A stretch of DNA of 64,000 nucleotides. Source: Psychrobacter proteolyticus. Its GTDB lineage: Bacteria; Pseudomonadota; Gammaproteobacteria; Pseudomonadales; Moraxellaceae. The translations under genes and the position numbers were made by a program. Positions within the stretch are counted from its first letter, which is position 1. Each line of letters begins with the position of its first letter. The notes below the pieces were generated by a model, which worked only from the letters and a program-made list of their open reading frames with translations, did not search any database and had not been told where the DNA came from. Shown piece by piece: positions 12,170-16,166 of this stretch. The stretch spans positions 229,946-293,945 of the forward strand of contig NZ_QLKS01000001.1 in NCBI RefSeq assembly GCF_003350005.1. Direction: 5' to 3'.

Positions 12170-13078
12170 TCAATGAGATATCTGCTCCCATAGCTGACGT
12201 TTAGCATCACTGTCTGCGAGCATTTCTTCTAATGTCGGCACAGCGGTCAGATTGTGATGTTGGAGGCCGTCAGGTAACGCTGTCAGTGCAGCAACTTTTA
12301 TCTCTTCGCTTCGGCCAATTCGAAAGATATATCCTGCAAGACTGGCATTGGCAAGCTCAGCAGTATCCATACCATCACAAATCGGGAATGATGTTGTCTC
12401 GCAAGTGATTGATAGCGCTTGAGTGATGTTTTGCCATAGTTTTTGACTGTCACTATTTAGCGCTTTGATATCAACCAATATTACCCAGTCATTATAGCGG
12501 CCACCTTGCAGGTCAAATGGTGCTACTTTTTTTAAGCTATCATCATTTATGCTGTCATCACTAGTACTCTGCAGAAAATTACTCTGCGCAAATTGAGGTT
12601 GCTCAATAGGGGCATTAGTCGAGACTGCAACAGTTTGGTTCGATGCAGTACTTGGGATGTCATGATAGATAGACCCAGCACTTGAACTAACAGCATCTGA
12701 ACTGACCGTATTTGAGTCAACGGAATCAAAGCTATAAGTAACAGGGCTTTGCTCGCTAGCCGTCTGTTCAGTGGTAGCTTGTAAATCAGTATCATACTCA
12801 TCGGCAACATAGCCGTTAGCATTATAATTACTGATATCATAACCATCAGTCGGTTGATCAACTGTCCCTACAGCTTTAGCGCTCACTACTTCATTGTTAT
12901 TAGACTCAATATCAATAGAGTTAGCATTTGATTGCTCCACCGAAGCTGTCGCAATATCAGCCATATTGATGGTTTTTGACTCAGGCTGCACCCACTGATT
13001 GATACCCATCATCGCTAGAATTTGGCGTTGCTGCACTCGGCGCTGTAATACACTTAGCGGGTCTTGGGTATCACTCAT
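12170..13078 (-). CDS. holD: Probable DNA polymerase III psi subunit with a long low-complexity insert
   Basis: 302 residues with no obvious annotation at first sight, but both ends resemble the E. coli psi subunit of the clamp-loader. The N-terminus has RQILAMMGINQW (residues 18-29), matching LQQLGITQW of E. coli, which binds the DnaX collar. The C-terminus has VPTLEEMLADSDAKRQLWEQI, matching the E. coli segment that ends in RAALWQQI, preceded by an FRIGRSEE segment like its WRLGTDEP. Between them (about residues 35-190) lies an acidic Ser/Thr/Asp/Asn-rich low-complexity stretch, so it is about twice the usual psi length. Psi links the clamp loader to chi and SSB. The match is by eye and rests on short conserved blocks. 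It lies between the M48 protease and serC, with 100-base gaps. Confidence 0.62.
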   Translation of the reverse strand: MSDTQDPLSVLQRRVQQRQILAMMGINQWVQPESKTINMADIATASVEQSNANSIDIESNNNEVVSAKAVGTVDQPTDGYDISNYNANGYVADEYDTDLQATTEQTASEQSPVTYSFDSVDSNTVSSDAVSSSAGSIYHDIPSTASNQTVAVSTNAPIEQPQFAQSNFLQSTSDDSINDDSLKKVAPFDLQGGRYNDWVILVDIKALNSDSQKLWQNITQALSITCETTSFPICDGMDTAELANASLAGYIFRIGRSEEIKVAALTALPDGLQHHNLTAVPTLEEMLADSDAKRQLWEQISH

Positions 13079-13192: not shown

Positions 13193-16126
13193 TCAAAACA
13201 GCTGTCGAATGCCTAGCCAACGCTCTGATATTGCCAGCAAACAATCGTATTCATCTTGGCTGATTATCGTATCGTGTAACATTACCGTATGCAACGTACT
13301 TAGCCATTGGCGATACTCATTATGAGTAGGCTGGTTCATCTCACTTTCATTATAATCTATTTGGCTACCATCCTGTTGCTTCTCTCGATAATTATCAGCA
13401 TTCTGATCACCTACCAAGCGCTTGATAGAGTGATTGGCAGAGACAGGAACCGCAGAAATAATCGCCAATAACTGAATGCTATTCAAGTGCTGTGCGGTCA
13501 ATAATAGCCACTGCAAATTAACATCCCTTGCTGTCACGAGATCAATATCAATCAAGCGCGCATGCCGTCTCAAATCTACAATATAATGCGCCACACTGTC
13601 ATTACCCTCACTCAATAACGATCGGTCATGCATTGAGATCATCTGGCCTTTGGCATCTTTTGATAGTCTATAAGCCAATAAGACAACAACTGATACTTCT
13701 GATTTACTAAGTCCTGTAAACACCTGACTTGAAGGATCTAGTTGCGATTTTACGTCTTCCATACCAGTCTTCAGTATTTGCGGCCATAGAGACTGCGCGT
13801 CTGTATCTTGTAAAACTTTAGACAATATCGGTAGTAACTGCTGCAAATGTAACGCTTGCCATAGTGATAATATTGGCGATTTTTGAAGTGTTAAAGCTAA
13901 CGGGGTATTCAGAGCAATAGCATTAGAGTTGTCACTAGGTATATTTTGATCTGATGAATCGTAGGCTAAGTTTTTGGTTAAGTCAGATGCCAGCTGTTGG
14001 TTAAATAACTCAAATATTCCCTGCTGATAACGCAACAACATCGTACGGCATTTCTCTTGTTTTTTATAGTACTGATGACTGTCGTGACTATGATCGTCTT
14101 TACTTTTGAGCTTTAGATTTTCGATACATAGTTCAGATAAACTCTTTTGATGCAATTGGTTTAAGGCGAGCTCAATCAAAGCGCTGTCTAAACGCCTGTC
14201 CAAACTGGCTACTACTGTCATCAGCTTAGTATCTATCTTATGTGGCAATACTTGCTCATGGGAAGTCGAGTCAGTCGCAGCAGGGAAGCCATCATTCCAA
14301 ATATCATTCAAACTATAAGTGGCAGTCGTTGATAATGGTTGATGCTGATGACAAAGCAAGACAGCTTCGACTAATGCTAGCGCACCTAGAGGATGATAAC
14401 TATGGTTTAGTATGTACTGAGGTAGTGATACCTTTTGAATATCATTAAATCCAATTAGTGTGTTTTCTGGTAGGTCAGCGTCAGGTTTGGACTGCCACGG
14501 TTTTAATAGCTGATGAACGCCAACGTCTTCGGCCTGTACTTGAAGCCGCCCATCGACCACCACATCAGCTTCTACGGCAAACTCTAAACCGTCATCAATC
14601 TCTGATTCGCCATTATCTTTATTACGATTTTCGCTTATAGATTCAGCAAGAACTTTTCTATCATTTGGCTGTTTAGTGTCACCTGTATTAATCGTTGCAG
14701 CTGTTTGCGTCTCAAATACTGACGAGTGCCGCGTATTTTTTTCTGGGAAATCTTTACTTAGGCTATTTTCTTTTGTTGCGCCCCAATTACCTAAGCGTCG
14801 TTGCCTATATATTTCTTTGACCTTTTGCTGATTTATTCGCTTTTCTTTGGCGACTTGTACCGCGAACTGATGATAAGCATCCGCATTAATAGCGCTCATA
14901 CGCTCAGTCAAGCTTGGATGGGTGGCAAACCACGACACATCACCTAAGTCTGCCCCACTACTAGCAAAGAAAAAATGACTGAGCCCATTGATATCAGCGA
15001 TGCTAGACAAACGTGAGCCGAGCGAGTCTTGATGAATGGCTTTTAAGCTTTCTATAATCGCAGGCGTACGTGTTAACTGAACACTGGTGGCATCAGCAAG
15101 TAGCTCACGCTCACGATTAAAACTGTGCTTAATCAACTGCGCGCTTGCCATGCTAGAGAAGCTTAAACCATGCAGTAGCAATGTCCAGACGCTACGTGGG
15201 GCTTGACGATCTATTATAGGTGACGTTTGCACCCATTTAGACTGACGCTTGGCTGAGGACTGCTGTTGTTGTGATTGCTGCTGCCAGTAGGCGACCCATT
15301 CACTATGCGTGTTGAAATTGTCCGTTTGCGCTTCTGTATTGCGTGCCAGCATATCAACCTGTCTTTGTGATAAAGACTTTTGGGAGATATTATCGCTATC
15401 AAAGTGACTATAATTAGAGATATGATTGGATATTGGGTCACTCCAGTCGTATAGTATCTGCAAGCCTGCCAATACCACCATCAGCTGTAAATTGAACGTA
15501 GCATCGCCGTGCAATATATGACCATATTCATGACCGATGAGCCCGTATAGCGCCTCATCAGACAGTTTATCTAGCGCACCTTGGGTAACGACAAGTACCA
15601 TATCTTGACTATGGCGACCAGCGACAAAACCATTGATACCCTGCTCGTCAGGTAGCACGTACAAAATAGGGGTTTGTAAACCTGAAGCAATGGCCAGTTG
15701 CTGTGCAATTTCATAATAGCGACGATAAACGGGCGGAAAATCGCGCTCGTCACGTACTGCTATATGACGTGAACGATAGCGAACCTTTTCTTCAGCTTCA
15801 TATTGATGAGCGACTCCTTGACTGTGCTCCCATGCTTCTTGACTTTTATCAATGAACAGCCTAACTGCTCCTACTCGCTGGGCAATAGCGCGGCCACCTG
15901 CTCGCAGGCGTCGATACTCTAAAAAACTACCACCAACGAAACTGCCTAACGTCAAGACAGTGACCAGAACCAATGCCCAATGATATATACCGCCTGTAAA
16001 TACTGTCAGCATTATAGACATGACAGCCAGTCCTACAGCCATATGAGCAAGTACAATCAGGAAAAACAGTCCATAGAGTAATAGACTGAGCCGCGTACGT
16101 ATCCGCTGTTCACCAAAAAAATCCAT
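13193..16126 (-). CDS. Large membrane M48-family metalloprotease
   Basis: 977 residues. N-terminal membrane helices (about residues 15-75) are followed by a cytoplasmic or periplasmic M48 domain with the zinc motif HEYGHILHGD and the downstream Glu in FNRERELLADA. A low-complexity linker follows, then a roughly 400-residue helical C-terminal region that I do not recognise. The catalytic residues are intact. The frame is open to a TTG at 16153, but the ATG at 16126 gives the typical family start (MDFFGEQ). It lies 40 bases after lemA. LemA-M48 pairs are common and are thought to act on membrane or envelope proteins. It is much longer than HtpX (about 290 residues). The substrate is unknown. 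Confidence 0.85.
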   Translation of the reverse strand: MDFFGEQRIRTRLSLLLYGLFFLIVLAHMAVGLAVMSIMLTVFTGGIYHWALVLVTVLTLGSFVGGSFLEYRRLRAGGRAIAQRVGAVRLFIDKSQEAWEHSQGVAHQYEAEEKVRYRSRHIAVRDERDFPPVYRRYYEIAQQLAIASGLQTPILYVLPDEQGINGFVAGRHSQDMVLVVTQGALDKLSDEALYGLIGHEYGHILHGDATFNLQLMVVLAGLQILYDWSDPISNHISNYSHFDSDNISQKSLSQRQVDMLARNTEAQTDNFNTHSEWVAYWQQQSQQQQSSAKRQSKWVQTSPIIDRQAPRSVWTLLLHGLSFSSMASAQLIKHSFNRERELLADATSVQLTRTPAIIESLKAIHQDSLGSRLSSIADINGLSHFFFASSGADLGDVSWFATHPSLTERMSAINADAYHQFAVQVAKEKRINQQKVKEIYRQRRLGNWGATKENSLSKDFPEKNTRHSSVFETQTAATINTGDTKQPNDRKVLAESISENRNKDNGESEIDDGLEFAVEADVVVDGRLQVQAEDVGVHQLLKPWQSKPDADLPENTLIGFNDIQKVSLPQYILNHSYHPLGALALVEAVLLCHQHQPLSTTATYSLNDIWNDGFPAATDSTSHEQVLPHKIDTKLMTVVASLDRRLDSALIELALNQLHQKSLSELCIENLKLKSKDDHSHDSHQYYKKQEKCRTMLLRYQQGIFELFNQQLASDLTKNLAYDSSDQNIPSDNSNAIALNTPLALTLQKSPILSLWQALHLQQLLPILSKVLQDTDAQSLWPQILKTGMEDVKSQLDPSSQVFTGLSKSEVSVVVLLAYRLSKDAKGQMISMHDRSLLSEGNDSVAHYIVDLRRHARLIDIDLVTARDVNLQWLLLTAQHLNSIQLLAIISAVPVSANHSIKRLVGDQNADNYREKQQDGSQIDYNESEMNQPTHNEYRQWLSTLHTVMLHDTIISQDEYDCLLAISERWLGIRQLF

Positions 16127-16166
16127 TAGATTAGGCTGCCTAGAGTTCGCCAAAATTATCTAAACC

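Follow-up and report, generated by a model that had tools for sequence, protein, structure and literature searches.

Introduction

The roles of the two ends of psi, the holD-encoded adaptor subunit in the clamp loader of DNA polymerase III, have been described (PMC3290774; PMC3197488), as have those of psi and chi (PMC13213242). The psi of Pseudomonas aeruginosa is nearly twice as long as that of Escherichia coli, and its N-terminal region was found to be unstructured by ultracentrifugation and small-angle X-ray scattering and to bind single-stranded DNA (ssDNA) at low salt; several positive residues in a conserved stretch of this region might bind ssDNA (PMC3197488). The chi-psi of P. putida binds ssDNA too, and genomes with chi but no findable psi were noted in the same paper (PMC3197488). 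The 278-amino-acid (aa) form of P. aeruginosa psi is the functional one (PMC8879598). Furthermore, psi is much longer in Acinetobacter baylyi and P. aeruginosa, holD being essential there (PMC3290774), and a psi relative of A. baumannii has been tied to replication genes by phenotype (PMC11975115). Among the literature matches listed, no psi of Psychrobacter was described (Robinson 2010, MMBR, may contain one), and nothing was found that joins Moraxellaceae with the clamp loader and psi; one paper linking Psychrobacter, DNA polymerase III and disorder concerns SSB, to judge by its title. Here, we analysed a stretch of 64,000 nucleotides from Psychrobacter proteolyticus (the window) and found an open reading frame (ORF) with an ATG start that is very probably holD, encoding a psi that would work as a flexible tether (Table 1).

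A probable holD gene with two conserved ends

The ORF product matched the Pfam family PF03603 (DNA_III_psi) with an E value of 1.7e-7 and 32 bits against a gathering score of 22.2, the best stretch spanning residues 207–301, and this was the single match in its own genome, which is 99.99% complete. A psi profile made from other families of Pseudomonadales hit one place in this genome at E ≤ 1, which was the same gene, albeit weakly (E 0.0036). The genome also contains one match each for chi (PF04364; 79.2 bits, at G000:C14:488182-488643) and for domain III of DnaX (PF12169; 87.3 bits). In profile–profile comparisons with hhalign, the C-terminal domain, as a 30-row Moraxellaceae alignment, matched an alignment of six psi proteins headed by that of E. 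coli with E 2.7e-8 and probability 95. The full-length profile of the own genus matched the six E. coli-led psi proteins with E 1e-6 and probability 91, the C-terminal part being aligned, and the own-genus profile matched 17 psi proteins from other families of the order in the C-terminal domain with E 6.9e-13 and probability 98.

The two blocks named in the original prediction were present as claimed, RQILAMMGINQW close to the start of the protein and VPTLEEMLADSD...LWEQI at its end. The N-terminal block is of the DnaX-binding-peptide kind, with the pattern xxLxxMGIxxW. It was scored with a matrix whose rows were all 23 psi N-termini from beyond Moraxellaceae (17 belonging to further families of Pseudomonadales and 6 to other Gammaproteobacteria, E. 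coli among them); these had been selected by an expression written with the motif already in mind. Residues 15–29 reached 18.7 bits, against 9.9 for the best of the 98 other stop-to-stop frames of at least 80 aa in the window and 15.3 for the best of 5000 whole-protein shuffles. In 33 rows of the own genus, residues Q16, Q17, R18, Q19, I20, L21, M24, and W29 are invariant, and A22, M23, G25, I26, and Q28 are conserved in at least 90%. The median synonymous divergence (dS) was 0.07 in these first 29 codons versus 0.42 in the C-terminal domain, and codon entropy at conserved sites was 0.74 (13 sites) versus 1.16 (68 sites; p 0.013); the low synonymous divergence at the 5′ end may reflect an ordinary start-codon effect rather than a constraint at the RNA level.

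The AlphaFold model has an N-terminal helix at residues 7–23, in a block with a predicted local distance difference test score (pLDDT) of 51–60, a low-confidence part at residues 33–177, and a confident C-terminal domain at residues 181–302 (block pLDDT 79–93), which had a mean pLDDT of 86.7 when modelled alone. The C-terminal domain is 97% identical to that of named Psychrobacter records. These results together support the identification of the gene as holD on the evidence of sequence comparison and agree with the earlier claim of a psi protein; psi similarity was found by profile, and the searches of the genome brought up no second psi gene.

Several searches gave no such signal. The NCBIfam psi models (PRK06856 group, TIGR00664) stayed far below their equivalog cut-offs, the best at 19.3 bits versus 162 and the other three at 14.5–16.1 bits versus 150.55–201. 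Nothing was found among PDB sequences at E ≤ 10 with the full protein or with the C-terminal profile; the full-length profile gave two matches within the low-complexity part (E 0.82 and 1.4). The fold comparison with E. coli psi (1EM8 chain B) gave no match standing out. The gene had also been described as hidden, which holds for the NCBIfam models and for its Acinetobacter homologues, but not for Pfam, which finds it above the cut-off. In four Acinetobacter records with a psi homologue, one is labelled "hypothetical protein" and three have no gene listed there, the gene table being incomplete. A psi gene labelled "hypothetical protein" was seen on a 135 kb record given as a plasmid of A. baumannii (H7; NZ_CP098797.1:104962-105609).

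A long acidic linker separates the two ends

Between the two conserved ends lies a linker of 156 aa that is predicted to be disordered, its pLDDT being below 50 across nearly all of residues 33–177, in agreement with the disordered spacer of the original prediction. Across 69 sequences, comprising the window and 68 of the 69 named Psychrobacter loci, the linker measures 117–167 aa (median 150; SD 11.8) and is negative in all, with a net charge of −27 to −10 (median −19). In a second own-genus set that includes divergent lineages, 39 of 42 loci have linkers of 105–166 aa (median 150) and −27 to +4 (median −20), L003, L009, and L012 being left out as unparsed by the linker expression. These 39 linkers are made up of 14.8% S, 10.4% D, 10.0% A, and 9.1% T. 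Strong acidity is not general in Psychrobacter because the linkers of L028 (−2), L107 (−5), L108 (−4), and L109 (+4) carry little net charge. The strongly acidic linker of most Psychrobacter, set against the positive patch reported in Pseudomonas, is new here. Own-genus linker statistics were made without L039–L068 (20 of these 30 are repeat genomes of L001–L038), and two rows were dropped, L018 with its ORF over two frames and L116 with a 198-aa frame without the N-terminal block. In one own-genus genome, psi (G003:C35:244723-245076) sits in an open frame of 720 aa, much longer than those at the other loci.

Over 267 moderately diverged pairs, which are not independent, the ratio of nonsynonymous to synonymous divergence (dN/dS) was lowest for the C-terminal domain (0.10) and higher for the N-terminal block (0.30) and the linker (0.41).

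The same layout occurs elsewhere in Moraxellaceae and in the order

At E 1e-3, PF03603 found psi in 55 of 105 Psychrobacter genomes and in 33 of 199 genomes of the family, all of the own genus. A profile built from 15 C-terminal domains of the own genus matched 166 of the 199 family genomes, which represent 10 of 16 genera (66 own-genus and 100 other-genus genomes). The locus was read in 35 of these 100, and all 40 Moraxellaceae loci read (35 from other genera and 5 divergent own-genus ones) have the N-terminal motif, the linker, and the C-terminal domain, so the split sought in other Moraxellaceae was present in 35 of 35. Linkers of the 35 other-genus loci are 76–141 aa, mostly shorter than in Psychrobacter. 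Those of Acinetobacter (g15; 13 loci) are 76–113 aa (median 84) with charges of −8 to −1 (median −4). Median length and charge were 103 aa and +1 in g10 (9 loci), 117.5 aa and −10.5 in g7 (6 loci), 121 aa and −12 in g9 (3 loci), and 105 aa and −2 in g11 (3 loci); the single g16 linker has 120 aa and −5. Net-positive linkers occur in 5 of the 35 loci, all g10 (+1 to +11). Behind the N-terminal block, lineage-specific motifs are found, [WYF]RD in 13 of 13 Acinetobacter linkers (L091–L102, L105) and NPRxxHL in 6 of 9 g10 linkers (L077–L082).

Of 145 genomes sampled from the order, 2 had a psi match to PF03603, whereas 34, spread over 26 of 91 genera, had one to the 30-row Moraxellaceae profile, own-genus genomes being included in both counts; the other 111 had no psi match to this profile. 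Because of this difference, the apparent absence of psi is partly a matter of detection, and the psi genes that escape Pfam in this order are new here. Seven of 17 psi proteins from other families matched PF03603 at E ≤ 10, with a best E of 0.0022. Twenty-seven loci beyond the own genus (25 from other families, 2 from Moraxellaceae) were read, and the N-terminal motif was found by expression in 26 and by eye in L209. Their linkers are about 35–175 aa (median 87.5), the start of the C-terminal domain being estimated from the profile, with charges of −14 to +10. The layout had been suggested as a possible Moraxellaceae peculiarity, which did not hold, given the 25 loci of other families and the long psi published for P. 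aeruginosa (PMC3197488) and Acinetobacter (PMC3290774). An origin within Moraxellaceae only was likewise rejected, the linker of L195, from another family of the order, being even longer (about 175 aa) than that of the window. Outside the order, PF03603 found seven loci, with open frames of 133–199 aa.

All 10 loci scanned among the relatives in the order, drawn from the 14 of 27 with an ORF starting at −56 to +20 bases relative to where the psi frame ends, have a GNAT acetyltransferase as the next ORF after psi. This resembles the arrangement in E. coli, where rimI comes after holD, and speaks for psi.

A short motif within the linker

The expression Y-x-[FI]-[DN]-[STNDHR] is found in 18 of 24 Psychrobacter lineages (linker identity <50%) and 61 of 69 sequences; in the window and nearer relatives, the surrounding sequence is PVxYSFDS. 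Shuffling the linkers 2000 times gave a mean of 0.43 lineages and a maximum of 3; the expression had been broadened after the sequences were inspected. An earlier, stricter version gave 8 of 24 lineages and 26 of 69 sequences (shuffle mean 0.09, maximum 2). In an unguided pattern scan, Y.FD ranked top with 14 lineages, but in 200 shuffles the leading pattern, whatever its form, reached 10.8 lineages on average and up to 15, so the evidence for the motif is only suggestive. The pLDDT is slightly raised at residues 111–120 (46, against 33–38 in the 11 other blocks of residues 41–160; 43–48 at the linker ends). Neither the 35 linkers from other genera nor the divergent own-genus loci L028 and L106–L110 yielded the motif. 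Its apparent persistence in a fast-evolving linker, if upheld, is new here.

A second, helix-like segment (about V..xVxPLVDxVT) was noticed by eye in the linker half nearer the C-terminal domain, in L136, L160, L161, L164, L165, L166, L168, L169, L170, and L171.

Working of the linker

We infer that this psi serves as a flexible tether. Its N-terminal peptide would dock on domain III of DnaX (tau/gamma) in the clamp-loader collar, the C-terminal domain would hold chi, and chi would hold the tail of SSB, so that the long linker would let chi–SSB reach far from the clamp loader, farther than in E. coli. In contrast to Pseudomonas, the linker is unlikely to bind DNA itself because it is acidic. 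As judged by net charge only, neither the window nor any other of the 69 sequences resembles the pseudomonad ssDNA-binding psi with its positively charged residues in the linker, and a Pseudomonas-like DNA-binding arm was accordingly lowered as a candidate.

Quite possibly, the linker is functionally neutral within psi, any flexible stretch of sufficient length being adequate and its acidity following the composition of disordered regions in Psychrobacter. Its evolution is fast in comparison with the C-terminal domain, its length and charge vary widely among genera and its charge also within the own genus (39 loci), and 6 of the 24 lineages are without the Y-x-F-D motif. Against this, its dN/dS is still below 1, the 69 sequences keep a length of 117–167 aa and a consistently negative charge, and the motif outlasts its surroundings.

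The alternative, that the linker takes an active part in docking or regulation, with its motif and/or acidic stretch binding a replisome partner (the clamp loader, chi, or another) or keeping it away from DNA, is more tentative. The count of lineages with the motif, far above that in shuffles, and the local rise in pLDDT point to it; the post hoc widening of the expression, the performance of the best shuffled patterns, with up to 15 lineages against 14 for Y.FD, and the absence of the motif from the other-genus and the six divergent own-genus linkers argue against it. The passive linker is somewhat ahead of the docking-site linker. It is rather improbable that in most Psychrobacter the linker is an acidic arm kept off DNA with its own docking motif (Y-x-F-D-S), making psi a three-site adaptor for DnaX, chi, and a third partner. 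Finally, an unrelated protein with a psi-like C-terminus by chance would fit the lack of an outstanding fold match and the unreached NCBIfam cut-offs but is most improbable in view of the PF03603 score, the N-terminal matrix and profile–profile matches, the sole psi candidate in a near-complete genome, and the phenotype reported for the A. baumannii relative (PMC11975115).

Gene neighbourhood

In the direction of transcription, the same-strand order is LemA, an M48 peptidase, holD, a class-V aminotransferase, which we take to be serC, and a solute-binding protein. This five-gene order is kept in 53 of the 69 named Psychrobacter loci. In the remaining 16, matches to LemA and M48 are lacking in eight, LemA in five, and other subsets are present in three; some of these 16 may end at contig borders. 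The upstream M48 peptidase (13193–16153; 986 aa) has acidic stretches of its own, as seen by eye, and acidic inserts like the psi linker may therefore be common in the P. proteolyticus genome.

Table 1. Features of the putative holD locus, in window positions.
Feature	Position	Strand	Basis
Probable holD (DNA polymerase III psi subunit, long-linker form), 302 aa	12170..13078	-	ORF, PF03603 match, single match in genome
N-terminal block, residues 1-29, QQRQILAMMGINQW motif, putative DnaX-binding peptide	12992..13078	-	matrix score, AlphaFold helix
Acidic low-complexity linker, residues 30-185, net charge -20	12524..12991	-	pLDDT, dN/dS
YSFDS, residues 115-119, short motif kept within linker (suggestive)	12722..12736	-	count over Psychrobacter lineages
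C-terminal alpha/beta domain, residues 186-302, putative chi-binding domain	12173..12523	-	Pfam, pLDDT, profile-profile match

Comparison with known psi proteins

The E. coli psi (HolD, 137 aa; 1EM8, 3SXU, 3GLI) shares the N-terminal motif, as LGITQW, and the C-terminal block, ending in LWQQI, with the psi of the window, but is without the long linker. The Acinetobacter psi (A. baumannii GO593_00140; g15) shares the N-terminal motif, the linker, and the C-terminal domain and differs in its shorter and less charged linker and in its [WYF]RD motif. The P. aeruginosa psi (PA4679, 278 aa) has a disordered region between the conserved N-terminal peptide and the core, as here (PMC3197488; PMC8879598). 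Its core has extended loops, unlike that of the window psi, and its linker contains a conserved region with positive residues, whereas the linker of the window is acidic. This opposition between the positive residues reported for the Pseudomonas linker and the acidic linker here makes the role of linker charge in DNA binding by chi-psi testable.
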